From positions 1 through 47,524 of IMG/VR virus record IMGVR_UViG_3300020159_002420: a stretch of DNA of 47,524 nt, one strand, 5' to 3'. This document shows positions 3,000-19,769 of the stretch, one piece after another. The notes beneath the pieces are model-generated. The model was not told the origin of the DNA and ran no database searches. It saw only the letters and a program-made list of their open reading frames with translations. The translations under genes and the position numbers were made by a program. The number at the start of each line of letters is the position of its first letter. Positions within the stretch are counted from its first letter, which is position 1. This DNA is from a virus.

Positions 3000-3257
3000 A
3001 TGCCACACACACAAACAACAACAGTAAAAGCACGTCCAGGACGTCCATCAAACCCAAACTCTAATCGCCAAGTGCAATTAGCAGAACGAGCAGCACGTAT
3101 TGCAGCCGGAGGTTCAGCGAGTAAAGGTCGACCGACCAATCAATCATCAGCACGCCAAATGAAATTGGCTGAGCGAGCAGCGCTTATTGCAGCCGGTGTT
3201 ATGATTAAAAGAGGACGCAAACCAATGCCTAAGGCAGAAGAGACACCAGCTGAATAG
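3000..3257 (+). CDS. tandem-repeat AT-hook-like protein (85 aa)
   Basis: Two copies of a ~30-residue module, GRP-x(7)-RQ-x2-LAERAA-x-IAAG, occupy residues ~13-72, followed by a third basic hook (KRGRKPMP). The hooks (RPGRPSN, SKGRPTN) resemble AT-hooks, and the LAERAA segments should be helical. The protein is strongly basic until a short acidic tail. It probably binds DNA. The TAG stop sits in the loop of the terminator. It shares the GRP-hook theme, but no other similarity, with the protein at 1685. Confidence 0.75.
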   Translation: MPHTQTTTVKARPGRPSNPNSNRQVQLAERAARIAAGGSASKGRPTNQSSARQMKLAERAALIAAGVMIKRGRKPMPKAEETPAE

Positions 3258-3269
3258 CTGGTGTTTTTT
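3243..3269 (+). terminator. intrinsic terminator containing the stop codon
   Basis: ACACCAGCT (3243-3251) and AGCTGGTGT (3256-3264) form a perfect 9-bp stem with a 4-nt loop, followed by T6 that merges into the next -33 box. Confidence 0.85.
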
Positions 3270-3306: not shown

Positions 3307-3486
3307 AGTCAGGTGGCGGAATGTTATCAACCCCGTTCTAGATGTAAAAATAATGTGGTTAGAATCCACTACGGGGTCAATGTTAACTTGGTAGACGCTA
3401 ATGAACACAGCCCAATATGGCCTTCACCAGTGGTAATAATAAAAGATAAAATACCACACATACAGGTTCGATTCCTGTCCTGGCTA
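3307..3486 (+). tRNA. Leu-tRNA-like RNA, aberrant, with 68-nt insert in the D loop
   Basis: The acceptor AGTCAGG (3307-3313) pairs with CCTGGCT (3479-3485), followed by discriminator A. The class-II Leu-type D arm (TGGCGGAATG...GTAGACGC) is split by an insert at ~3324-3391. The T arm is intact: ACAGG-TTCGATT-CCTGT. A long variable-like arm pairs GTGGTA with TACCAC. The region where an anticodon arm should be is about 30 nt and does not form a standard 5-bp/7-nt stem-loop, so no anticodon can be assigned. CCA is not encoded; a T-run follows at once. It could be a tRNA remnant or a repurposed tRNA mimic. Confidence 0.5.
3324..3391 (+). other. insert in tRNA-like gene that folds as a mini-tRNA-like hairpin
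   Basis: Absent from the copy at 6656. CCCCGT (3331-3336) pairs with ACGGGG (3371-3376). Inside, GTGG-TTAGAAT-CCAC (3355-3369) resembles a T arm. AATGTTA occurs at both edges, like a duplicated target. Confidence 0.45.
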
Positions 3487-3493
3487 CTTTTTT

Positions 3494-3779: not shown

Positions 3780-3804
3780 TAATAAATTTTTTTGCGTACG
3801 AGGA

Positions 3805-3830
3805 TAATCAAAAAACATAACGTACATTTA
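3805..3830 (+). promoter_or_regulatory. early-type promoter for small RNA
   Basis: TAATCAA 3805-3811 and TACATTTA 3823-3830. The flanking GTACG...CGTAC is a decayed form of the promoter hairpin seen at 4289. Confidence 0.65.
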
Positions 3831-4272: not shown

Positions 4273-4288
4273 TAATAAATTTTTTTGC

Positions 4289-4323
4289 GTACGAGGGTGG
4301 TCAAAACCACTCTCGTACATTTA
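4289..4323 (+). promoter_or_regulatory. composite terminator-promoter hairpin
   Basis: The arms GTACGAGGGTGGT (4289-4301) and ACCACTCTCGTAC (4306-4318) form 13 pairs around CAAA. The -33 box TGGTCAA (4298-4304) is the apex. The -7 box TACATTTA (4316-4323) begins in the 3' arm. Confidence 0.75.
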
Positions 4324-4338
4324 TCTAAACAAAAAAAT

Positions 4339-4587
4339 ATGAATAAGAAAAAAACATTAATTGTAAGAATTCTCAATTTAAATGGGACATGGCAGGGTTA
4401 TAAATTAATAACACCACATGCTTATGATAAAGCAACATGGCCTGAACCAGGTAAACAGTTTGATACGTTGAATGAAATAATTGAATTTTATAAATTACAA
4501 AACGTACGTGAGTTGGGTGTAAAATACTCTTACGATAATAAAGATCAAAAATACGGAATTGAAGAATGGGAAGCATATTTACCATAA
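4339..4587 (+). CDS. hypothetical early protein (82 aa)
   Basis: The start at 4339 follows the promoter leader; the longer frame from 4285 would read through the promoter. The protein (MNKKKTLIVRILNLNG...) looks like a small alpha/beta fold with aromatic residues and ends IEEWEAYLP. No family recognised. Confidence 0.75.
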   Translation: MNKKKTLIVRILNLNGTWQGYKLITPHAYDKATWPEPGKQFDTLNEIIEFYKLQNVRELGVKYSYDNKDQKYGIEEWEAYLP

Positions 4588-4588
4588 A

Positions 4589-4614
4589 TAGTCAGAATTA
4601 TTTTCGTACATTTA
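4589..4614 (+). promoter_or_regulatory. early-type promoter
   Basis: TAGTCAG 4589-4595, directly after the upstream stop, and TACATTTA 4607-4614. Confidence 0.75.
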
Positions 4615-4634
4615 TCTAAACAAAAATAAAGGTT

Positions 4635-4850
4635 ATGAACACAAAAATCAAAGTAACAGATTTAAAATCCGGACACTCAATATTCGGTAACAAAGGTACA
4701 GTATGGTCTAACACAGCCCATATATACAAGTCAGGTCAGGGTAATTTATGCGGTACACCAGCATTAAGTAGTAATTGGGCACAAATAGAGAATATGACCC
4801 ATGTTGGTTGTCCAGAATGTTTAGAGAAATATAATGAACAACTTAGTTAA
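4635..4850 (+). CDS. small putative zinc-binding protein (71 aa)
   Basis: A His (HIYKSGQGNLCG) and a Cys near residue 35, plus a C-terminal GCPECLEKYN, give an H-x(n)-C...C-x2-C set typical of small treble-clef or ribbon proteins in phages. The short size and own promoter suggest an early host-directed or regulatory factor, but the role is unknown. Confidence 0.7.
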   Translation: MNTKIKVTDLKSGHSIFGNKGTVWSNTAHIYKSGQGNLCGTPALSSNWAQIENMTHVGCPECLEKYNEQLS

Positions 4851-4857
4851 ACACTAA

Positions 4858-4883
4858 TAGTCAAAATTATTTACGTACATTTA
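4858..4883 (+). promoter_or_regulatory. early-type promoter
   Basis: TAGTCAA 4858-4864 and TACATTTA 4876-4883. Confidence 0.75.
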
Positions 4884-4904
4884 TCTAAACAAAAATATAA
4901 AAAC

Positions 4905-5156
4905 ATGAAAACAAAAGTACAAATTAAATCGATTTTCGAACAAATTAGTGAACAAGTATTTAAAATGAACAACTTAAACGAGGTCAAAACTTACGTTGTA
5001 GATTTTGTTAATAATAAAAATATTAATGAAGTGGACAAACAAAACATTATTACTCAAGTTCAGAATACAAAATCTCTAACTAAATTTCAAACATACATTT
5101 GTAATAGTTTATTAAAGTATGAAGGTATGGGAGTTGGAGTAAAAAAGGAATTGTAA
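4905..5156 (+). CDS. early untagged paralogue of the 41942 protein (83 aa)
   Basis: The protein is all-helical. Its second half aligns with residues ~25-90 of the late gene at 41942: VVDF versus VIDF, then FQTYICNSLLKYEGMGV versus FDRYMANALLKFEKLGL. The early copy lacks the RMQQLAGI tag carried by the late one. Function unknown, but the pair implies the same domain is needed both in the virion and soon after infection. Confidence 0.75.
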   Translation: MKTKVQIKSIFEQISEQVFKMNNLNEVKTYVVDFVNNKNINEVDKQNIITQVQNTKSLTKFQTYICNSLLKYEGMGVGVKKEL

Positions 5157-5162
5157 TTATTT

Positions 5163-5188
5163 TCGTCAACGTTATTTACGTACATTTA
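5163..5188 (+). promoter_or_regulatory. early-type promoter
   Basis: TCGTCAA 5163-5169 and TACATTTA 5181-5188. Confidence 0.75.
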
Positions 5189-5210
5189 TCTAAACAAAAA
5201 AATAAAAAAC

Positions 5211-5435
5211 ATGAACAGAAAAGAAATTACCCCAGACTTTGTTTATCAAACATTTAAAGATTTAGACATCGAGATTCAAGAAGACATTGAATTAGGAAGT
5301 GAGGAGTGGATGGAGATTATATCTCATCTAGTAAGTAAAGATGCTTATAATGACTCTACATTTACAGAAGAGGATAATGCATATATAATGGAATTTAAAG
5401 ATATGTTAGAGTATATTGGTATTATGTTATATTAA
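5211..5435 (+). CDS. small acidic hypothetical protein (74 aa)
   Basis: Helical, acidic protein (DLDIEIQEDIELGSEEWMEI) ending in a hydrophobic segment MLEYIGIMLY. Own promoter; followed by a composite hairpin. No family recognised. Confidence 0.7.
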   Translation: MNRKEITPDFVYQTFKDLDIEIQEDIELGSEEWMEIISHLVSKDAYNDSTFTEEDNAYIMEFKDMLEYIGIMLY

Positions 5436-5443
5436 ACAGACGC

Positions 5444-5478
5444 GTACGAGGGTGGTCAAAACCACTCTCGTACATTTA
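5444..5478 (+). promoter_or_regulatory. composite terminator-promoter hairpin
   Basis: Same 13-bp hairpin as at 4289 (stem-loop 5444-5473). -33 TGGTCAA 5453-5459, -7 TACATTTA 5471-5478. Confidence 0.75.
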
Positions 5479-5498
5479 ACTAAACAAAAATAAAGATT

Positions 5499-5759
5499 AT
5501 GAAAATTAAAGTAATTAAAAATGCTTACTATGTAAGTGAAGATTTAACAAACATTGGTATGGTCAGTCAAGATGAATTTGAAGCCAGTTTTTCACATTTA
5601 TTAGTTGTAGGTGATGTTTGGGAAAAAATTAAAGATGAAGAAGGTAATTTTGTAGATGATATTTTTACATGTATTGAAGGTAAATGGGAAGAAGAAAAAA
5701 ATGATGGTTGGTGGGATTATGAAGATGTAATAGATTATTTTGAAGTAATTGAAAATTAA
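5499..5759 (+). CDS. small acidic hypothetical protein (86 aa)
   Basis: Begins MKIKVIKNAYYVSEDL with likely beta strands; the C-terminal half is rich in Trp and acidic residues (GKWEEEKNDGWWDYEDV). Monocistronic between two composite promoter hairpins. Function unknown. Confidence 0.7.
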   Translation: MKIKVIKNAYYVSEDLTNIGMVSQDEFEASFSHLLVVGDVWEKIKDEEGNFVDDIFTCIEGKWEEEKNDGWWDYEDVIDYFEVIEN

Positions 5760-5772
5760 AATTATATTTTGC

Positions 5773-5807
5773 GTACGAGGGTGGTCAAAACCACTCTCGT
5801 ACATTTA
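5773..5807 (+). promoter_or_regulatory. composite terminator-promoter hairpin
   Basis: Same hairpin as at 4289 (5773-5802). -33 TGGTCAA 5782-5788, -7 TACATTTA 5800-5807. Confidence 0.75.
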
Positions 5808-5829
5808 ATTAAACAAAAAAATAAAAAAT

Positions 5830-6117
5830 ATGAAAATACAATTAACAAAAACAGCTAAACAAGAGTTAAAAGTAATTAATAAGCGATTTTTAGATGATGA
5901 TAATAGTGATTATTATTTATTAACTGAGCGAGAAAAACTAGTTTGTGATGCCGGAATGTATGTTGATAATGCTTATACTAATAATTCGTTTAAACAATTA
6001 GATAAATGGTGTTTAAAAACAGGAATGAGTGAATATGAAAGTGAAACAGCTACTCAAATTGTTAAACAAAAGATAGGCAGAATGTTGATAGAAGATATAA
6101 TAACAATAATAGAATAG
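5830..6117 (+). CDS. hypothetical early protein (95 aa)
   Basis: Mostly helical: MKIQLTKTAKQELKVINKRF, a Tyr-rich middle, and a C-terminal hydrophobic helix IGRMLIEDIITIIE. Own promoter; followed by a distinct hairpin-promoter. No family recognised. Confidence 0.7.
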   Translation: MKIQLTKTAKQELKVINKRFLDDDNSDYYLLTEREKLVCDAGMYVDNAYTNNSFKQLDKWCLKTGMSEYESETATQIVKQKIGRMLIEDIITIIE

Positions 6118-6120
6118 AAT

Positions 6121-6151
6121 GTGGTGAGTCAAAACTCACCACTTACATTTA
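6121..6151 (+). promoter_or_regulatory. composite terminator-promoter hairpin, independent sequence
   Basis: GTGGTGAGT (6121-6129) and ACTCACCAC (6134-6142) form a perfect 9-bp stem around CAAA. The stem sequence differs from the 4289 family, yet GTCAA is again at the apex. -7 box 6144-6151. Confidence 0.75.
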
Positions 6152-6166
6152 TCTAAACAAAAAAAT

Positions 6167-6385
6167 ATGGATAATCTAAGCCCAAAAATGGAAAAACGAT
6201 ACAACATGATCGTCAGTAATTTAAGAAAAGCAAAGTCTGAAAAAGATACAGACCGAATTTATTCCAATCATATTGTATTACTTCCTAAAAAAGTAAAGAA
6301 TATAATATGTGATAGACTTATCAATATTGGATTAGCCGAAAAAAGTGATGATAATATATATTTGTTATATGATGATGGTTTGTAA
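6167..6385 (+). CDS. hypothetical early protein (72 aa)
   Basis: A basic helical N-terminus (MDNLSPKMEKRYNMIVSNLRKAKSEK), then a segment resembling a small winged-helix end (IICDRLINIGLAEKSDDNIYLLYDDG). A DNA-binding role is possible but unproven. Confidence 0.65.
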   Translation: MDNLSPKMEKRYNMIVSNLRKAKSEKDTDRIYSNHIVLLPKKVKNIICDRLINIGLAEKSDDNIYLLYDDGL

Positions 6386-6388
6386 ATA

Positions 6389-6414
6389 TTGTCAACGTTA
6401 TTTACGTACATTTA
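6389..6414 (+). promoter_or_regulatory. early-type promoter
   Basis: TTGTCAA 6389-6395 and TACATTTA 6407-6414. Confidence 0.75.
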
Positions 6415-6432
6415 TCTAAACAAAAATAAATT

Positions 6433-6612
6433 ATGAAGAATTTAGTAGGTAAAAAAGTTAGTGCTGTGGCGGATTGGGGTACCTATAAGGGTAGAACGGT
6501 AAATGGAATTTTATCCGTTAACGAAATTACAGGCCAGTATTTGGTAACCATAAAGATAGCGACAGTATCTGTAATGGAAGATACAATAGAAGGTTGTAAG
6601 AATAAATTGTAG
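6433..6612 (+). CDS. small beta-rich hypothetical protein (59 aa)
   Basis: MKNLVGKKVSAVADWGTYKG begins a chain of likely beta strands (GRTVNGILSVNEI, QYLVTIKIATVSV), suggesting a small SH3-like barrel. ATG at 6433 after a typical promoter and leader; stop TAG at 6610-6612. Function unknown. Confidence 0.7.
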   Translation: MKNLVGKKVSAVADWGTYKGRTVNGILSVNEITGQYLVTIKIATVSVMEDTIEGCKNKL

Positions 6613-6618
6613 TTAAAT

Positions 6619-6644
6619 TTGTCAAAATAATTTACGTACATTTA
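6619..6644 (+). promoter_or_regulatory. early-type promoter for tRNA-like RNA
   Basis: TTGTCAA 6619-6625 and TACATTTA 6637-6644; the tRNA-like acceptor starts 11 nt later. Confidence 0.75.
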
Positions 6645-6655
6645 ATTAAATAAAT

Positions 6656-6767
6656 AGTCAGGTGGCGGAATGGTAGACGCTAATGAACACAGCCCAATAT
6701 GGCCTTCACCAGTGGTAATAATAAAAGATAAAATACCACACACACAGGTTCGAATCCTGTCCTGACA
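6656..6767 (+). tRNA. Leu-tRNA-like RNA with aberrant anticodon region
   Basis: GTCAGG (6657-6662) pairs with CCTGAC (6761-6766). The D arm TGGCGGAATGGTAGACGC is that of bacterial tRNA-Leu, and the T arm is ACAGG-TTCGAAT-CCTGT. Between them, about 30 nt replace the anticodon arm: TGAA/TTCA, then GCC-CAATAT-GGC. A variable-like arm GTGGTA/TACCAC has a 16-nt loop. This middle section is nearly identical to the 3307 copy, suggesting recent duplication or constraint. No anticodon can be assigned with confidence. Confidence 0.55.
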
Positions 6768-6914
6768 CAAAGTAGAAACAACGTCTCCCCACTTTCTTGT
6801 TACCTGCAGGTGAAGGGTTTTTAAGGAGCAAATAATGAGGTGAAGATTAAATAGACGACAGCTTAAAGGCACTATTGATTTTATGTTGGGCAACCGATGT
6901 CCAACACTTCACCT
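6768..6914 (+). ncRNA. possible structured RNA downstream of tRNA-like gene
   Basis: 147 nt without an ORF, probably part of the transcript from the 6619 promoter. AGGTGAAG near 6838 is complementary to CTTCACCT near 6907, closing a large domain that contains GTTGG...CCAAC (6885-6905). The arm AGGTGAAG also occurs once more near 6810, offering an alternative fold. No family recognised. Confidence 0.3.
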
Positions 6915-6922
6915 TATATTTA
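6897..6922 (+). promoter_or_regulatory. early-type promoter (weaker match)
   Basis: ATGTCCA 6897-6903 and TATATTTA 6915-6922 at the usual spacing. Confidence 0.5.
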
Positions 6923-6938
6923 CATCAAATAAAAAAAT

Positions 6939-7145
6939 ATGAAACGAATAGTACACAATTTATTAGGATGGAATCGCACAAATGGTTTCGGAAACATTGT
7001 TGAACAACAACAATACGTTAGAACAACTCAACCACAGACTCGTTTGTCTCAGGAAGAATGGATAAAGCAATTTAGAGTGAGCCGTCAGTTCACGTTTATG
7101 GATAGGAATCACTACACTGAGGCCGTAGTGAATGTCGCTGTTTAG
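6939..7145 (+). CDS. small hypothetical protein (68 aa)
   Basis: MKRIVHNLLGWNRTNGFGN start, Gln/Arg-rich middle (EQQQYVRTTQPQTRLSQEEW) and short length. Preceded by a typical leader. No motif recognised. Confidence 0.6.
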   Translation: MKRIVHNLLGWNRTNGFGNIVEQQQYVRTTQPQTRLSQEEWIKQFRVSRQFTFMDRNHYTEAVVNVAV

Positions 7146-7204
7146 CCTCAAGTCATATTTTTAGTTTTTGTTTAGACATCGCCCAATAGAAATATTGGGC
7201 TTTG

Positions 7205-7230
7205 TTGTCCAAAAAAAGATCATACATTTA
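7205..7230 (+). promoter_or_regulatory. early-type promoter
   Basis: TTGTCCA 7205-7211 and TACATTTA 7223-7230. A hairpin GCCCAAT-AGAA-ATATTGGGC lies just upstream (7181-7200) and probably ends the previous transcript. Confidence 0.7.
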
Positions 7231-7252
7231 CATTAAACAAAAATAAATAATA

Positions 7253-7540
7253 ATGGAAACAAACTTACCAATAAATAGTATAGTGTCGTTTAATTTTACA
7301 TCCATGGGATGGAACCAGATACAAACCCAACAAGCCGAGGGCATTTTTTTGGGGTACGAGCTTGTGGATCATGAGAATATTATCCGGCCGTTCAATCCTT
7401 CTGCAGTCGAAGGATCCAAGGGAATAATTGCCGTTATGAGGTGTGGGTATGAAACGCTGGCTCTTTATTACTGGCACAAACCAATTACCGACCTTGAACA
7501 ATATAACAACTCAGATTTTAAATCAATAAAAATAAAATAA
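7253..7540 (+). CDS. hypothetical protein (95 aa), GC-richer codon use
   Basis: Beta-rich protein (METNLPINSIVSFNFTSMGW...). It opens a four-gene transcript with 7543, tRNA-Met and 7845. Codons such as CTT, CCG, GTC and GAG are far commoner than in neighbouring early genes, hinting at more recent acquisition. Function unknown. Confidence 0.65.
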   Translation: METNLPINSIVSFNFTSMGWNQIQTQQAEGIFLGYELVDHENIIRPFNPSAVEGSKGIIAVMRCGYETLALYYWHKPITDLEQYNNSDFKSIKIK

Positions 7541-7542
7541 AC

Positions 7543-7749
7543 ATGCAGAATTTTTTGACCGCAATTGGAACCGTAATTGGAATTTTTTTAATCGCAGCCG
7601 TTTTAATGGGCTTGCCTCTAATGATCCTATGGAATTGGCTCATGCCCCACATATTCAATCTACCAGAAATTGGCTTCTGGCAAGCGGTGGGGATCAATTT
7701 CATGTGCTCGATTATGTTTAAATCAACATCATCAAACACAAAAGATTAA
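7543..7749 (+). CDS. small two-pass membrane protein (68 aa)
   Basis: An N-terminal hydrophobic helix (residues ~5-30, IGTVIGIFLIAAVLMGLP) and a second segment (~45-58, FWQAVGINFMCSIMF) indicate an inner-membrane protein. It starts 2 nt after the upstream stop, so the two are co-transcribed. Could be a host-envelope or superinfection factor; no family assigned. Confidence 0.65.
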   Translation: MQNFLTAIGTVIGIFLIAAVLMGLPLMILWNWLMPHIFNLPEIGFWQAVGINFMCSIMFKSTSSNTKD

Positions 7750-7755
7750 ACGCCA

Positions 7756-7829
7756 GGATCCTTAGCTCAGCTGGTTAGAGCAACACACTCATAATGTGAA
7801 GGCCGCAGGTTCAAATCCTGCAGGATCCA
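7756..7829 (+). tRNA. tRNA with anticodon CAU (Met or Ile2 type)
   Basis: A full cloverleaf: acceptor GGATCCT/AGGATCC, D arm GCTC-AGCTGGTTA-GAGC, anticodon arm ACACA-CTCATAA-TGTGA (anticodon CAT at loop positions 3-5), 5-nt variable loop, T arm GCAGG-TTCAAAT-CCTGC, discriminator A. CCA is not encoded. It lies within a protein-coding transcript. Identity depends on whether C34 is lysidine-modified. Confidence 0.93.
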
Positions 7830-7844
7830 CTAAAACAAAATCAA

Positions 7845-8015
7845 ATGAAAACAAGAACGTACCGTATCAGCATTAACAACAAGGGAACCATTACATACAC
7901 CACCATCTCAGTTCAAGCACCGGCTGGATCCGGAGCCGCAATTCAACTGGCTGAATCGATGTACGGGGGATCCGGAATCTTCATCAGTATGCTCGGGATG
8001 ATAAGTGAGGGTTAA
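7845..8015 (+). CDS. small Gly/Ala/Ser-rich hypothetical protein (56 aa)
   Basis: Starts MKTRTYRISINNKGTITY with likely beta strands, then SVQAPAGSGAAIQLAESMYG and a hydrophobic C-terminus. It follows the tRNA by 15 nt and shares the GC-richer codon use of this cassette. Function unknown. Confidence 0.6.
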   Translation: MKTRTYRISINNKGTITYTTISVQAPAGSGAAIQLAESMYGGSGIFISMLGMISEG

Positions 8016-8043
8016 TGCGTGATTATTGTTTTGATTAGGGGTA

Positions 8044-8070
8044 AGGGGTAGACTATGTCTACCTCTTTTA
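8044..8070 (+). terminator. intrinsic terminator
   Basis: AGGGGTAGAC (8044-8053) and GTCTACCTCT (8057-8066) form a 10-bp stem with one G-U pair and a 3-nt loop, followed by TTTT that runs into the next promoter. Confidence 0.8.
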
Positions 8071-8096
8071 TTGTCAACATTATTTACGTACATTTA
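8071..8096 (+). promoter_or_regulatory. early-type promoter
   Basis: TTGTCAA 8071-8077 and TACATTTA 8089-8096. Confidence 0.75.
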
Positions 8097-8117
8097 ACTA
8101 AACAAAAATATAAAAAC

Positions 8118-8336
8118 ATGACAAATTTACTAGAACGTCTTAAACCAGAACACAAACAATCAATGGATCAAATATGGAAACCATATCCAACAACTAAAAG
8201 ATCAATTGAACAACAATTAACAGATAATAAGTTTGTTAGTGGATTGAATTTCGAGACGGTAAACAGATTGTCTGATATATTGGGAGTGTCTAAATTTGGA
8301 TTTATAGACATTTATGATATGTTTGAACAAGGATAA
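8118..8336 (+). CDS. small hypothetical protein (72 aa)
   Basis: The start at 8118 follows the leader; the frame from 8055 crosses the promoter. Helical protein (MTNLLERLKPEHKQSMDQIW...) ending DILGVSKFGFIDIYDMFEQG. Followed by a strong terminator. Function unknown. Confidence 0.75.
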   Translation: MTNLLERLKPEHKQSMDQIWKPYPTTKRSIEQQLTDNKFVSGLNFETVNRLSDILGVSKFGFIDIYDMFEQG

Positions 8337-8345
8337 TACAATAAA

Positions 8346-8375
8346 GAGGGACAGATAATGTTTGTCCCTTTTTTT
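8346..8375 (+). terminator. intrinsic terminator
   Basis: GGGACA (8348-8353) and TGTCCC (8363-8368), followed by T7. Confidence 0.8.
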
Positions 8376-8400
8376 ATGTCAATATAATTATATACATTTA
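8376..8400 (+). promoter_or_regulatory. early-type promoter (17-nt spacing)
   Basis: ATGTCAA 8376-8382 and TACATTTA 8393-8400. Confidence 0.65.
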
Positions 8401-8421
8401 CATCAAACAAAAATAAAAAAT

Positions 8422-8628
8422 ATGAACATTACAGAATTAATTGAACATCTAACACAACTAAAAAACGAACATGGTGATAAAGATGTAGTATTAAAAATTA
8501 CAGACCATACAGATTGGGACTATCATTTCTATCATCCAGGATTTATAATAGATAATGTATATGATGATGGTGATGAAGGTGAATTTGAGGAAGACACTGA
8601 GTATTGTGTTTGTGAAATAAGTATTTAA
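8422..8628 (+). CDS. small acidic hypothetical protein (68 aa)
   Basis: Starts MNITELIEHLTQLKNEHGDKDVVLKI; the second half is very acidic (NVYDDGDEGEFEEDTEY) and ends CVCEISI. The start at 8422 is chosen over 8362, which precedes the promoter. The opening resembles small phage proteins of the type LIxxLxxLKxxxGD-x-VV, but the role is unknown. Confidence 0.75.
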   Translation: MNITELIEHLTQLKNEHGDKDVVLKITDHTDWDYHFYHPGFIIDNVYDDGDEGEFEEDTEYCVCEISI

Positions 8629-8645
8629 AATAGAATAATTAATGT

Positions 8646-8680
8646 GTACGAGGGTGGTCAAAGCTACTCTCGTACATTTA
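8646..8680 (+). promoter_or_regulatory. composite terminator-promoter hairpin, wobble variant
   Basis: GTACGAGGGTGGT (8646-8658) pairs with GCTACTCTCGTAC (8663-8675) around CAAA. The changes in the 3' arm keep pairing through G-U. -33 TGGTCAA 8655-8661, -7 8673-8680. Confidence 0.75.
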
Positions 8681-8701
8681 TCTAAACAAAAAAATAAAAA
8701 C

Positions 8702-8917
8702 ATGAAAAACATTTACTTAATCTTCGTAGACATAAACGATGTATCTAACTACTGTAAAATTGAATGTGAAAGAAAAGACTTTATTAACTCATTAATTGAG
8801 AATGAATTGATTGAAAGTAAGGATGATATAAAAAACTTAAGTTGGATAATATTTGAAAATGGAAATATGATAAATTTTTCTAATTTTTGGTTCTTTTTAA
8901 TAAATAAAATAGAATAA
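8702..8917 (+). CDS. hypothetical protein lacking Ala/Pro/Thr/His/Gln (71 aa)
   Basis: MKNIYLIFVDINDVSNYCK... contains none of the five amino acids whose codons always need a C. The first ~25 codons still use C-ending codons, and C becomes rare toward the 3' end. The start at 8702 follows a composite promoter. Function unknown. First of four consecutive genes that avoid C-requiring amino acids. Confidence 0.75.
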   Translation: MKNIYLIFVDINDVSNYCKIECERKDFINSLIENELIESKDDIKNLSWIIFENGNMINFSNFWFFLINKIE

Positions 8918-8924
8918 TTAATGT

Positions 8925-8959
8925 GTACGAGGGTAGTCAAAGCTATCCTCGTACATTTA
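8925..8959 (+). promoter_or_regulatory. composite terminator-promoter hairpin, covariant
   Basis: GTACGAGGGTAGT (8925-8937) and GCTATCCTCGTAC (8942-8954) around CAAA. Both arms differ from the 4289 family yet still pair. -33 TAGTCAA 8934-8940, -7 8952-8959. Confidence 0.75.
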
Positions 8960-8979
8960 ATTAAACAAAAATATAAAAT

Positions 8980-9177
8980 ATGGAATTAAGAGAAATTAAA
9001 GATTTAAGTGGTGAAAAATTAAGATTTAGTGAGTTTAAGGAGTATGTAGAAGATTATTATAAGAATAATAAGGAGTATGGAATAAAGAAGAGTAGTAGGT
9101 ATTTTAAAGAAATAAAGTATTGTTATTTTAATTTAGAAGAAGGTTATAAAAAATATTGTTTATGTTTTGAATATTAA
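8980..9177 (+). CDS. cytosine-free gene, basic/acidic small protein (65 aa)
   Basis: The coding strand has no C at all in 198 nt. The protein therefore has no Ala, Pro, Thr, His or Gln and consists mainly of Lys, Glu, Tyr, Phe and Ser (ends YCLCFEY). All Leu are TTA/TTG, all Arg AGA/AGG and all Ser AGT. It has its own promoter and leader, so it is a real transcription unit. Function unknown. Confidence 0.7.
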   Translation: MELREIKDLSGEKLRFSEFKEYVEDYYKNNKEYGIKKSSRYFKEIKYCYFNLEEGYKKYCLCFEY

Positions 9178-9210
9178 ATTAATTTATATATTAATAAATT
9201 AAATTATAAA

Positions 9211-9236
9211 TAGGCAAAATAAAAATATTATATTTA
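9211..9236 (+). promoter_or_regulatory. early-type promoter, C-poor variant
   Basis: TAGGCAA 9211-9217 and TATATTTA 9229-9236. The only C between 8967 and 9660 is the one in this -33 box. Confidence 0.6.
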
Positions 9237-9258
9237 TATAAATAAAAAAATAAAAATT

Positions 9259-9648
9259 ATGAAAAAAGTATTATTAAGTGATTGGTTTAAATTTATGTTA
9301 GAAAATGAATTAAATGAAGAGTTGATGTGTGGATTAGGTGAAAAGAAAAAGAATTATATTAGTTTATGTAATGAATTTTGGAAATTGGAAGGTGAAGATA
9401 GAGATATTATGTTAGAAGATTTAAAGAAAGATGAGGGTATATTATATAAGAAAATGGTTGAATGGAATAAAAATGAATTATTAATAGAATTAGATATGAA
9501 TATGGTGTGGTGGGAATATAGTTTAGAAGATTATTTTAGAGATATGTTTAGTAAAAATAATGATGATAATGATGAATTTAGTTTATTTGAATTAAAAGAT
9601 ATTAATAAGATGATGTATGGAGAAGATTATGATGATGAAGATTATTAA
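9259..9648 (+). CDS. cytosine-free gene, acidic protein (129 aa)
   Basis: 390 nt of coding strand contain no C. The protein lacks Ala, Pro, Thr, His and Gln and ends in an acidic tail (GEDYDDEDY). It is Met/Trp/Leu-rich and predicted helical (MKKVLLSDWFKFMLENELNEE). No frameshift or stop interrupts the frame, which argues for a maintained gene. Function unknown; acidic composition and early timing would suit an inhibitor. Confidence 0.75.
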   Translation: MKKVLLSDWFKFMLENELNEELMCGLGEKKKNYISLCNEFWKLEGEDRDIMLEDLKKDEGILYKKMVEWNKNELLIELDMNMVWWEYSLEDYFRDMFSKNNDDNDEFSLFELKDINKMMYGEDYDDEDY

Positions 9649-9656
9649 TTTATAAA

Positions 9657-9682
9657 TAGTCAAAATTAATTATGTATATTTA
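9657..9682 (+). promoter_or_regulatory. early-type promoter
   Basis: TAGTCAA 9657-9663 and TATATTTA 9675-9682. C9661 in the -33 box is the first C after 445 C-free bases. Confidence 0.65.
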
Positions 9683-9705
9683 ATTAAACAAAAAAATAAA
9701 AAAAT

Positions 9706-9825
9706 ATGGGAAATTTAAGAAATGTTAGTAAATGGTTAATTTTAGGAGTAATTGTATTAGATGTTTTAATTGTAATGAGTGGGATTTATTTATATAATCA
9801 TTTTAGTATATGTTTTATTAAATAA
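9706..9825 (+). CDS. tiny single-pass membrane protein (39 aa), one C only
   Basis: MGNLRNVSKWLILGVIVLDV starts a single hydrophobic helix (residues ~9-30). Its only C is in the sole His codon. It has a promoter, a leader and a terminator (9836-9867). Function unknown; a membrane-active early peptide is possible. Confidence 0.65.
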   Translation: MGNLRNVSKWLILGVIVLDVLIVMSGIYLYNHFSICFIK

Positions 9826-9835
9826 ATTTAATATT

Positions 9836-9867
9836 AAACTCCCTATTAATTTAGGGAGTTTTTTTAT
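9836..9867 (+). terminator. intrinsic terminator
   Basis: AAACTCCCT (9836-9844) and AGGGAGTTT (9853-9861) form a perfect 9-bp stem, followed by a T-run. It marks the end of the C-poor stretch. Confidence 0.85.
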
Positions 9868-9872
9868 ATAAA

Positions 9873-9898
9873 CAGTCAAAACAATTACCGTACATTTA
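9873..9898 (+). promoter_or_regulatory. early-type promoter
   Basis: CAGTCAA 9873-9879 and TACATTTA 9891-9898. Confidence 0.75.
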
Positions 9899-9919
9899 AT
9901 TAAACAAAAAAATAAAAAC

Positions 9920-10315
9920 ATGACAATTCAATTAACACAACAAGAATCAGAACACCATTTCCACAACGCACTATGTAATGGATTGGGAGAAATTGGGTAT
10001 TATGGTCTGGATTTAGATTACGATGATCAAAAATACAAAGACGCCAAAACCACCTTACAAACCCAATCCCCAACATCTGTAATATGTCATGAGGACATAT
10101 TGATGGAAATGTTAAAGAGCGGAGGCACATTAACATTACTGGATAATGAGGATGATGATAATGAGGTAGCGTCAATCACAATTTCAGATGTACATGAGAG
10201 AGTAAGTCAAACACCAATTGAACATTTAGTGGATGCAATAACAGAAAATGATGATGCTACAACAGCGGATGTAATAATTCAGACGGTGTTCTTAAATGAG
10301 ATAGTGTATGGTTAA
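9920..10315 (+). CDS. hypothetical acidic protein (131 aa)
   Basis: MTIQLTQQESEHHFHNAL start; acidic, His- and Thr-containing, C-rich codons (CAC, ACC, CCA). It contrasts sharply with the C-free genes just upstream, so the composition break lies at ~9839. No motif recognised. Confidence 0.7.
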   Translation: MTIQLTQQESEHHFHNALCNGLGEIGYYGLDLDYDDQKYKDAKTTLQTQSPTSVICHEDILMEMLKSGGTLTLLDNEDDDNEVASITISDVHERVSQTPIEHLVDAITENDDATTADVIIQTVFLNEIVYG

Positions 10316-10342
10316 AATTAAATAAGCAATATAATAATAAGG

Positions 10343-10377
10343 GAATGGGGCTCGTCAGAGCCTCATTCATACATTTA
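10343..10377 (+). promoter_or_regulatory. composite terminator-promoter hairpin, unrelated stem
   Basis: GAATGGGGCTC (10343-10353) and GAGCCTCATTC (10358-10368) form 11 pairs around GTCA. -33 TCGTCAG 10352-10358, -7 TACATTTA 10370-10377. Confidence 0.75.
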
Positions 10378-10395
10378 CCTCAAATAAAAATAAAT

Positions 10396-13225: not shown

Positions 13226-13488
13226 TATATTTTATATTACTACATGTATTTGAGCTTATCGGAATATTATTCTATATGCTTATTAGAAAGAACCAAAAAT
13301 TAGAAAAAGCCGTTAAGGAACAGCAACAATATGTTGATTCACTTAGTATTGTAATTGAACAATCTAACGATAGGTTAAAAGAACTAGACGATAAAGGTAT
13401 GTTTGCGTCGGACGATGAAATTGGATTTTTCTTTGAAAATATTAAAGAAATTCAATCTATATTAAATGATTTTACTATTAAAGGATAA
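13222..13488 (+). CDS. membrane-anchored coiled-coil protein (88 aa)
   Basis: An N-terminal hydrophobic helix (IYFILLHVFELIGILFYMLI), then a basic turn (RKNQK) and a long Gln/Glu-rich helix. It overlaps the HD gene by 4 nt and ends 1 nt before the sigma-factor ATG, so all three are translationally linked. Role unknown. Confidence 0.7.
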   Translation: MIYFILLHVFELIGILFYMLIRKNQKLEKAVKEQQQYVDSLSIVIEQSNDRLKELDDKGMFASDDEIGFFFENIKEIQSILNDFTIKG

Positions 13489-13489
13489 T

Positions 13490-14272
13490 ATGAATCATTA
13501 CTACGAAGAAGATATAAATAAGTTTTTAGATGCTGAATTAGGTAAGGTAAGTCTTACTAAAAAAGGTCAACCTCGTTTACGTAAACCTAAGGAACCTCGA
13601 ATATATTTTACGCAAGAAACGGAAGATGCTATTATTGAATATCTTCAAACTGAAGATACAATTCAAAGAAATTGTATATATAATGAGCGAGTATCTTATG
13701 CTTTTTATAAGTTAGCAGAAAATATCATTCATACATTTAAATTTTATTATACTGACATAGATACAATAGAAGAACTAAAGCATGAAGTAGTAGTATTTCT
13801 TCTTGAAAAATTACATCTATATAATCAAGATAAAGGTAAAGCATTTTCTTATTTTGGTACAATTGCTAAACGTTATTTAATAGTATATAATGAGAAAAAT
13901 TATAAAAAATTACAGGAAAAAGCAGATATTGAAGAAATAGATGAAGATAAAACTATTTTATATGAAGTAATAAGAGAAGCAGACAATATTGCTAATCCTA
14001 ATACCTTTATTAATCAATATATTGAATATATAGATACTTATCTATTCCAGTTATTTCCTAAACCACATGATGCTCGAACAGCGGATGCTATTCTTGAATT
14101 ATTTCGTAAACGAGAATCAATAGAAATATTCAATAAAAAAGCACTATATATTTACATTCGTGAAATAACTGATGTATCTACACCGCAGGTAACTAAAATT
14201 ACTAAAAAGCTTAAAATGTTATATATTAAATTATATAATGAGTATTATGAGCATGGTTATATAAAAATTTAA
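13490..14272 (+). CDS. gp55-like sigma factor for late transcription (260 aa)
   Basis: Residues ~60-135 match the sigma region-2-like core of T4 gp55-type factors: an RNC-x-YNERVSYAFYKLAENII helix, then ELKHEVVVFLLEKLHLYNQD and KGKAFSYFGTIAKRYLI, comparable to the FDPxKSxNPFAYFTxII block of T4-like phages. The C-terminal half holds helical segments that could be a region-4 remnant or clamp-binding tail. The start at 13490 follows the upstream stop. It probably directs host RNA polymerase to the ATATTTAT boxes before the structural genes. Confidence 0.75.
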   Translation: MNHYYEEDINKFLDAELGKVSLTKKGQPRLRKPKEPRIYFTQETEDAIIEYLQTEDTIQRNCIYNERVSYAFYKLAENIIHTFKFYYTDIDTIEELKHEVVVFLLEKLHLYNQDKGKAFSYFGTIAKRYLIVYNEKNYKKLQEKADIEEIDEDKTILYEVIREADNIANPNTFINQYIEYIDTYLFQLFPKPHDARTADAILELFRKRESIEIFNKKALYIYIREITDVSTPQVTKITKKLKMLYIKLYNEYYEHGYIKI

Positions 14273-17538: not shown

Positions 17539-17955
17539 ATGCCATTAAGTAATACTGTACAAACAAACCCCATTAATCTAAACAGAAATATTACTGTAGG
17601 AATATCTCTTCCCTTTAATAAACCCTCTGCTTTTAGAAGTACATATGACTTTAAACAACAAATAAAATTTAATTTAGTAAATTTATTACTTACTAATAGA
17701 GGTGAACGAGTATATAACCCCGATTTTGGTACAGATATACGAAAACAGATATTTAATCAAATGGTAGAGGGAACATTTGAAGCATTATCTGATGATATAT
17801 CTAATACTATAGCTGCTTATATTCCCGAAATAACAGTAGAAAAACTTACAGTGACTCCCGGTCCGGTATATAATAATAATGCCGTTGTAGTAGATTTAAC
17901 ATACAGAATTAATATATCTAACGAAAGTGACACAATAACAATCAATTTTGAATAA
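17539..17955 (+). CDS. 25: gp25-like baseplate wedge protein (138 aa)
   Basis: A strong GPW/gp25 match: LVNLLLTNRGERVYNPDFGT, DIRKQIFNQ, and the following helix ALSDDISNTIAAYIPEI, then TVTPGPVYNNN. The family forms the conserved inner wedge/sheath-initiator core of contractile tails. Length is typical. Overlaps the gp6-like gene by 1 nt. Confidence 0.92.
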   Translation: MPLSNTVQTNPINLNRNITVGISLPFNKPSAFRSTYDFKQQIKFNLVNLLLTNRGERVYNPDFGTDIRKQIFNQMVEGTFEALSDDISNTIAAYIPEITVEKLTVTPGPVYNNNAVVVDLTYRINISNESDTITINFE

Positions 17956-19769
17956 TGGCTAATAATAGTGTAAACATATCATATTTAAATAAATCTTTTG
18001 GTGACTTTAGGAGTACACTATTAGATTATGCTAAAACATATTTTCCAACATCATATAATGATTACTCGGAAACCGCAGTAGGTTTAATGTTTATAGAAAT
18101 GGCTTCTTATATTGGTGATAATTTATCATTTTATTTAGATACTCAATTTCAAGAAAATTTAGTTAACTATGCTAAAGAAAAAAATAATCTAATAAATATA
18201 GCATATAGTTTAGGTTATACACCTAAAATGTCTTATGCTTCTTCTACTACATTAGATGTATATCAATTAGTCCCTAAAATAACTAGTGGATCTCAGTCCG
18301 TACCTGACTACGATTATGCTATTAAAATTTCTGAAAATTCACCTGTTAAAAGTATAAATAATGTTAATTTCCTTACTACAGAGGAAGTAGATTTTAGTAA
18401 TAGTATTAATAGAGATGTAACATTTTATAACGTTGATTATTTTTTACTTAAAAAAACAGTTAAAGTAATATCTGCTGAGAAAAAAACAACAACATTTACA
18501 TTTACTAGTCCTACTAAATTTACTAGTGTAGATATAGAAGATAATAAAATACTACAGATATTAAATATAGTTGATGATATTAATAATCAATGGTATGAAG
18601 TACCATATTTAGCTCAAAGTGTTATACTTAACCCCACAACAAATCTATCTACAGCAGATAGTGGCTCAGTACCATATGTTCTAGGATATAAACAAGTACC
18701 ACAACGTTTTGTAAGTAGATTTACAAACGACAATACATTACAATTACAATTTGGAGCTGGAACTTCTACATCAGCAGATAATGTATTATTACCTAATCCT
18801 GACAGTACTCAATTAGGTATTATTCCTAATATATTTAATTCTAACTTTAATAAATCAAACGTATATATTGCTAGAGAATATGGTTTAGCTCCTTCAAATA
18901 CAACATTAACAGTTACTTATTTAGTAGGTGGAGGTATAGAGTCAAATCAACCGGTAAATACAATTACACAAAAAGGATTTACAATTTCCAATATAAGTTT
19001 TAAAAATTTCACACCCATTTCTAATCCTACATTAGGTAATACTATATTCGATTCATTAACATTTAATAATCCATATCCCTCATTAGGTGGTAGAGACGGA
19101 GATACTGTTGAAGAAATTAGACAAAATACACTATCATCATTCTCAGCACAAGATCGTGTTGTAACACAAGAAGATTATATTAACAGATCATTAAGTATGC
19201 CTAGTCAATATGGTAATATTTCTAAAGTATATATCGAAAATACAAACCAAAAACTATCAGACGGTACTATAAACTATTCAGCATTAGATTTATATGTATT
19301 AGCCTATGATTCAAATAAAAATTTAACAGCGGCTACTACAACATTAAAAAATAATTTAGCAACATATCTAAATAATTATAGAATGTTAACTGATGCTATT
19401 AATATTAAAGACGCATATTACATTAATATAGGCGTTAACTTTGATATTACTACTATTCCCCAAGCGTCTAATAGAGAAGCACTAAACGCCTGTTTAACGT
19501 CCTTAAAAAATTATTTTGCTATAGATAATTGGCAACTTAATAAACCTATTATATTAGCTGATGTATATTCATTATTATTAAAAATTCCACAAGTTCAATC
19601 TGTACGTAAAGTAGAAATTGTAAATAAACAAGGAGGAAATTATTCACAATATGGATATGATATAGTAGGAGCTACTAAAAATGATATTATATATCCGTCT
19701 TTAGATCCATCTATATTTGAAGTACGTTATCCTGACACAGATATCCAAGGTAAAGTTATTACCTTTTAA
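17955..19769 (+). CDS. 6: gp6-like baseplate wedge protein (604 aa)
   Basis: N-terminal pattern of the T4 gp6/gpJ-type family: RSTLLDYAKTYFPTSYNDY, GLMFIEMASYIGDNLSFYLD, QENLVNYAKEKNNLI. The middle has LQLQFGAG and an internal EEIRQNTLSSFSAQDRVVTQ, EDYINRS block typical of the wedge (baseplate_J). C-terminus similar to gpJ ends (VYSLLLKIPQVQSVRKVEIV). It links wedge arms around the hub. Length close to T4 gp6. Confidence 0.92.
   Translation: MANNSVNISYLNKSFGDFRSTLLDYAKTYFPTSYNDYSETAVGLMFIEMASYIGDNLSFYLDTQFQENLVNYAKEKNNLINIAYSLGYTPKMSYASSTTLDVYQLVPKITSGSQSVPDYDYAIKISENSPVKSINNVNFLTTEEVDFSNSINRDVTFYNVDYFLLKKTVKVISAEKKTTTFTFTSPTKFTSVDIEDNKILQILNIVDDINNQWYEVPYLAQSVILNPTTNLSTADSGSVPYVLGYKQVPQRFVSRFTNDNTLQLQFGAGTSTSADNVLLPNPDSTQLGIIPNIFNSNFNKSNVYIAREYGLAPSNTTLTVTYLVGGGIESNQPVNTITQKGFTISNISFKNFTPISNPTLGNTIFDSLTFNNPYPSLGGRDGDTVEEIRQNTLSSFSAQDRVVTQEDYINRSLSMPSQYGNISKVYIENTNQKLSDGTINYSALDLYVLAYDSNKNLTAATTTLKNNLATYLNNYRMLTDAINIKDAYYINIGVNFDITTIPQASNREALNACLTSLKNYFAIDNWQLNKPIILADVYSLLLKIPQVQSVRKVEIVNKQGGNYSQYGYDIVGATKNDIIYPSLDPSIFEVRYPDTDIQGKVITF

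Follow-up and report, generated by a model that had tools for sequence, protein, structure and literature searches.

Hairpins nested in the promoters of small phage genes as candidate combined terminators and promoters

Introduction

In the first 10.4 kb of the virus record IMGVR_UViG_3300020159_002420, many small genes follow one another in the same direction, and seven hairpins there share bases with a promoter-like motif. This raises the question of whether one and the same element stops the transcript of the gene upstream and starts that of the next, as an earlier note on this DNA had proposed. We analysed the whole record (47,524 bases, 29.7% G+C; hereafter the window) together with related viral stretches, designated below by L numbers. 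We favour, with a probability of about 80%, the reading that each composite element is an intrinsic terminator lying within the next gene's promoter.

Results

A motif GTCA-N12-TACATTTA lies upstream of most of the small genes on the + strand between 1 and 10.4 kb, where we counted 29 matches, one of them (4983) intragenic; a few extra matches were found outside this region and on the - strand. Since the motif also precedes stretches without any gene, such as a tRNA-like element at 6657, it reads as promoter-like rather than as a translation signal. A transcriptome study of Flavobacterium psychrophilum gives the -7 box of that species as TAnnTTTG at -12 to -5 (PMC9723704). On the same scale, the TAnnTTTA box of the window occupies -12 to -5 and GTCA falls at -28 to -25, so that the name "-33 box" used in the earlier note is about 8 bp off. 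The -7 box of the window is TACATTTA, with a final A instead of G, in a promoter set preselected by a pattern that fixes those bases. Among 20 hairpin-less promoters, chosen by a pattern fixing GTC and TAnnTTTA and not including the seven that carry hairpins, the one at 8378 with its different spacing, or those at 3807 and 9213 with a changed box, we observed GTCAA at -28 to -24 and conserved bases that the pattern does not fix, including A at -24, CG at -14/-13, T at -2 and A at +1. The TTG near -33 by which a promoter of the Bacteroidetes primary sigma factor would be recognized showed no conservation in these 20. The nearest analogue in spacing is the T4 MotA box, placed 12 bp from the -10 element (PMC2988021). 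Many relatives share the window's promoter, some in a GGCA form, and in L268, L271, L273, L278 and L283 the ATG comes 3-5 nt past the -7 box, so that the mRNAs would be nearly leaderless.

All seven hairpins described earlier are present on the + strand. Three have the stem GTACGAGGGTGG/CCACTCTCGTAC and lie at 4289..4318 (GTCA at 4300-4303, -7 box at 4316-4323; -22.1 kcal/mol), 5444..5473 (GTCA at 5455-5458, -7 box at 5471-5478) and 5773..5802 (GTCA at 5784-5787, -7 box at 5800-5807). Two more are found at 8645..8676 (8646-8675 extended by one base on either side, GTCA at 8657-8660, -7 box at 8673-8680; -22.1 kcal/mol) and 8924..8955 (8925-8954 extended likewise, GTCA at 8936-8939, -7 box at 8952-8959; -22.8 kcal/mol). 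The hairpins at 6121..6142 (9 bp, GTCA at 6128-6131, -7 box at 6144-6151; -14.4 kcal/mol) and 10343..10368 (11 bp, GTCA at 10354-10357, -7 box at 10370-10377; -19.4 kcal/mol) have unrelated stems, as had been noticed. The box is enclosed in both, but the loop is CAAA at 6121 and GTCA at 10343. More generally, a GTCA(AA) loop had been ascribed to all seven; only the one at 10343 is exactly GTCA, and the other six pair the G and T of the box and leave CAAA as loop. The window's five GTACGAG copies are almost the same sequence and do not count as independent. Folded as + strand RNA, the seven hairpins have energies between -14.4 and -22.8 kcal/mol (z between -4.3 and -8.6), and for each of them none of 200 shuffles folded as well; each is thus a stable G-C-containing + strand RNA hairpin of the kind found in intrinsic terminators. 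Minus-strand RNA folded worse at the three hairpins compared, with -18.2 against -22.1 kcal/mol for 4285-4330, -11.2 against -22.1 for 8642-8687 and -14.8 against -19.4 for 10339-10384.

A further site, at 3795-3821, looks like a decayed composite hairpin, which retains the 5' arm GTACGAGG and the -7 box, with an altered GTCA box and a replaced 3' arm.

We then asked on which molecule the pairing is maintained. One stem pair is G-C in the first copy (4299/4308), G.U in another (8656/8665) and A-U in a third (8935/8944). The covariation claimed for the hairpins at 4289, 8646 and 8925 therefore holds for RNA, but not for DNA, in which the G.U state is mismatched. When one pair of a stem undergoes a single transition, a given strand is left with G.U or A.C, and the two should be equally frequent if DNA symmetry alone were at stake. 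Some hairpins of the relatives are copies of each other, and the 39 hairpins used in this strand test fall into 19 clusters. Scoring G.U and A.C alike, we counted 24 G.U versus 5 A.C overall (20 versus 3 in an earlier, smaller count) and 16 versus 0 inside the G-C cores (binomial 1.5e-5). As G.U is kept in the stem cores and A.C is not, the pairing is maintained in coding-strand (mRNA-sense) RNA and not in DNA, which counts against a cruciform and against an N4-like DNA hairpin.

The relatives were found with the gene at 13466..14272 (+ strand) and its counterpart in Flavobacterium phage immuto (NC_055915) as queries; at least 556 related stretches were returned, of which 80 were kept. A search from one window protein as single query recovered none, and zero matches were obtained in viral contigs for the exact hairpin at the DNA level and zero with a long promoter pattern. 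A short promoter pattern gave at least 120 stretches, mostly with lone background matches. In 15 relative records, a pattern search pointed to 76 places, from which 31 short stretches were taken; most of the others lay in loci already sampled, and a few in G001, G002 and G005 were omitted.

Hairpins centred on the upstream box occur far more often in these promoters than expected by chance. An apex hairpin scoring at least 22 was present in 15 of 102 distinct promoters from the window and its relatives, a set mixing in records picked for carrying the pattern, whereas exchange of left with right halves between phages gave an expectation of 0.7, and shuffling one of 0.12. When the scan was widened to 81 sources, 32 of which had any promoter-like site, the proportion was 26 of 169 sites versus 0.86 expected from swaps. 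In several relatives the apex hairpin is built from a quite different stem sequence. We also ran a search that ignores the 5' arm; its pattern, GTCARARCCC-N6-TAYATTTA, specifies the two boxes and a portion of the 3' arm and nothing else. A complementary 5' arm, defined as at least 5 pairs covering CCC, was found in 25 of 27 matches in viral contigs (15 of 17 distinct) and in 3 of 25 in cellular genomes. The two armless viral matches, L286 and L293, have no nearby upstream same-strand stop and may lie inside genes.

The position of the hairpins is that expected of terminators. At 38 of 42 sites the GTCA box follows a same-strand stop codon by 9-39 nt (all 38 below 60 nt), immediately behind a gene read in the same direction, as expected for an intrinsic terminator. 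Moreover, in all 27 cases the G-C core of the stem ends at -3 to +5 nt relative to the -7 box, with 4-6 T in the next 8 nt, and therefore the -7 box would stand in for the U-rich tract that follows a terminator stem. We calculated a terminator d score with a formula from the literature, taking gene starts and stops by hand and only the best hairpin per junction. All seven composite hairpins were positive (in order of position 4.2, 0.1, 2.8, 2.0, 17.3, 17.1 and 5.5). Six other junctions were positive as well (0.2 to 36.7), with a best hairpin that lies entirely before the promoter. The remaining 17 of 30 junctions had a negative score or no hairpin, and 0 of 300 coding windows were positive. 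In three cases homologous junctions retain a hairpin but build it from another stem, as seen for w5499-5759 and L274, w5830-6117 and L171, and w9920-10315 and L135 (w, window). At junctions of the L193 homologue of w8702-8917, hairpins with T-rich tails are followed by a separate promoter. Together, the position after stop codons, the RNA pairing kept through unrelated stems, the separate terminator at a relative's junction and the d scores (7 of 7) favour the proposal that one element could stop the upstream transcript and start the next.

Canonical terminators, not nested in a promoter, occur in the same part of the window, all on the + strand. They lie at 3244..3263, just upstream of promoter 3271 (d 34.9), at 7181..7200 upstream of promoter 7207 (d 14.5), at 8045..8065 upstream of promoter 8073 (d 23.7), at 8348..8368 upstream of promoter 8378 (d 36.3) and at 9839..9858 upstream of promoter 9875 (d 36.7); those at 7181, 8045 and 9839 were also called by a generic terminator scan. 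They resemble the composite elements in the kind of junction, the promoter type and the expected effect. In contrast to these elements, they have both hairpin and T run placed before the GTCA box, and the hairpin has no bases in common with the promoter. In the relatives L243 (CCCCCTTTTTATATTTA) and L255 (GTCAGGCTTTTTTTGTATATTTA), the overlap of hairpin and promoter includes a good T run. At about position 150, L255 has a canonical terminator in which the GTCA box is provided by the 3' arm instead of the loop and the T run sits in the promoter spacer.

Several observations weigh against a nested terminator. The hairpin is missing at 143 of the 169 promoter-like sites. In the strand test, the 5 A.C mismatches, none of which falls within a stem core, slightly lessen the overall contrast. 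The 4-6 T that follow the stem derive from the -7 box and, because every such promoter has this box, they are not independent evidence. Three composite hairpins have d values only slightly above zero (0.1, 2.0 and 2.8). Finally, the U-tracts are weak, and the generic scan calls only three of the seven composite hairpins, whereas the canonical terminators of the same window carry T runs and score higher.

Regarding the virus itself, the baseplate-wedge protein encoded at 17955-19769 shares 44% identity with its counterpart in immuto (160 kb) and 43% with the one in Mel-JY01 (190 kb), so that the record probably represents part of a larger myovirus genome. In immuto, the region syntenic with the first 10.4 kb of the window is likewise packed with small genes. 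The protein encoded at 13466-14272, conserved in at least 556 viral stretches, had no match in Pfam; judged by eye, we take it to resemble the T4 gp55-type late sigma factors. Ten window proteins searched in Pfam gave zero matches, and a search of the window in Rfam returned tRNA only.

Among the small genes we also noticed RNA-like elements. Those at 3310-3487 and 6655-6770 are tRNA-like, with acceptor, D and T arms of tRNA type separated by an unusual region of about 60 nt, and one of the two carries about 64 nt of additional sequence within its D loop. Each comes after a GTCA promoter, and both were missed by ARAGORN and Rfam. A non-coding stretch CTACCTCTGATC ... GCGCC, possibly a small RNA, is found at 1525-1600 in the window, directly after a GTCA promoter, at about 2990-3026 in L133 and at about 5110-5170 in L135.

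Discussion

The anatomy of the composite elements, the pairing at the RNA level, the conservation of the layout and the position after genes are direct observations. From these we infer that the hairpin would terminate transcription and that the promoter would fire, presumably with a factor that reads the GTCA box. A polymerase transcribing the upstream small gene would produce the hairpin only a few nucleotides beyond the stop codon, and the U-rich RNA behind it would be the -7 box itself (e.g. AUUUAUCU). The upstream transcript would then end about 2-10 nt before the next predicted start site. Once unfolded, the same DNA, about 35 letters in all, would serve as the next promoter, with GTCA or GGCA at about -28 to -25 and TAnnTTTA at -12 to -5. 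Small genes could thereby stand in series, each with a unit-length mRNA and hardly any intergenic DNA. With so short a distance to the next start, the active site of the polymerase would be left almost on the next +1. A released polymerase might even stay on the DNA, regain an initiation factor and restart in place, although we regard such a relay as rather unlikely. Recycling of E. coli polymerase to nearby promoters after termination is described in PMC11347151; in the literature searched, we found no report of recycling with the promoter built into the terminator.

The closest precedent comes from T4-like phages, whose PeSLs (promoter-early stem-loops), a term associated with Arbiol et al. 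2010 and Comeau et al. 2014, reportedly terminate transcription. The title of Comeau et al. 2014, as cited in PMC4503421 and PMC5931544, calls them composite conserved promoter-terminator motifs. The window is similar in combining a promoter and a stem-loop, in several copies, between small genes of a variable region. In 19 gaps picked by eye from the first 50 kb of RB49 (a pattern script, blind to other spacings, found 5 of 21), several early-type promoters share bases with a hairpin. There, the -10 box is in the loop (centres about -11), or the hairpin fills the -35/-10 spacer (centre -21), or, in one case, the -35 is in the 5' arm (centre -27). The window differs in its promoter, which is GTCA/GGCA-N12-TAnnTTTA and not of the sigma-70-like early type, in belonging to another phage lineage, and in its register, with the upstream box at the apex (centres about -26.5 to -22.5) and the -7 box replacing the U-tract. 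Because promoter and register differ, we do not file these elements as PeSLs; they would be PeSL-like in their working and a new variant of that kind. Immuto offers a second comparison, as hairpins overlap promoters in its syntenic small-gene region, too (5 of 20 promoters with a score of at least 22 versus 0.74 expected), for example near 68.7-69.6 kb of NC_055915. However, its promoter is the host-like TTG-N21-TATATTTAG, with TTG in the loop or the 5' arm, and a clearer U-rich tract precedes the -7 box. As described in PMC3950731, the haloarchaeal myovirus HGTV-1 has a TATA-like box and an inverted repeat before most open reading frames of one part of its genome. The likeness lies in a promoter-like box with an inverted repeat ahead of many reading frames in one genome region, but the promoter is archaeal. 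We found no report of the layout in Bacteroidetes phages in the literature searched.

Could the hairpin act on the RNA without terminating? A nuclease might cut read-through RNA near it, and the stem might then shield the upstream mRNA from 3' exonucleases. Covariation on the RNA strand and the place after stop codons would be expected equally from such processing or stabilization, and the weak U-tracts fit it. Yet it leaves unexplained why the G-C cores end in phase with the U-rich -7 box, why other junctions of the same stretch have canonical terminators and why immuto, L243 and L255 have U-tracts, and we consider it unlikely. Pairing at the level of DNA finds much less room. The earlier note had suggested that a cruciform would expose the box and offer supercoiling control, and the long, near-perfect palindromes centred on the box, up to 17 pairs with wobbles counted (L171:5205), might speak for this or for an N4-type promoter. 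N4-type promoters have a hairpin in every promoter, which is recognized as single-stranded DNA. Here, the G.U-to-A.C ratio of 16 to 0 inside stems shows an RNA-strand bias, the palindromes are imperfect as DNA and unrelated in sequence, the hairpin is absent from most promoters of this type, and the hairpins are placed right after genes. On these grounds we set the N4-type promoter aside and find neither the exposed box nor the supercoiling control borne out; a DNA structure of either kind is very improbable.

Two further readings concern what the repeats are for. The five near-identical palindromes of the window cover the promoter, as would an operator for a dimeric phage repressor or activator. 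This is hardly to be expected from the other hairpins of the same phage and its relatives, whose arms are unrelated and which have only pairing and boxes in common, nor from the wobble asymmetry, and we give the operator next to no weight. Alternatively, the promoter-hairpin units might be kept alike within a genome as the ends of cassettes for swapping small genes, with termination being secondary. In favour of this, one gene common to the window and L274 is flanked in each by two hairpins of the same stem, the stem differing between the phages, and its neighbours differ. Gene order also differs between the window and L171 (w5830 and w3000 swapped) and between the window and L135, and T4-like PeSLs are reported to act so (cited in PMC4503421). 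But recombination alone needs neither RNA pairing nor a G.U preference, which makes it very unlikely as the whole explanation. It is compatible with a terminator nested in the promoter and does not replace it; the composite elements, like PeSLs, may also serve gene shuffling.

If the nested-terminator reading is right, a terminator built into the next promoter is not peculiar to T4-like coliphages, but recurs among relatives of a Flavobacterium phage, combined with at least two other promoter types and a variety of unrelated stems. The RNA wobble bias combined with fixed promoter boxes would provide a comparative signature for finding such elements in raw sequence. The element would also be a natural template for asking whether a terminated polymerase restarts in place and, if the relay were true, one loading event would give a series of separate unit-length mRNAs. 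Above all, the layout would explain how tiny genes could each have their own transcript with minimal intergenic space.

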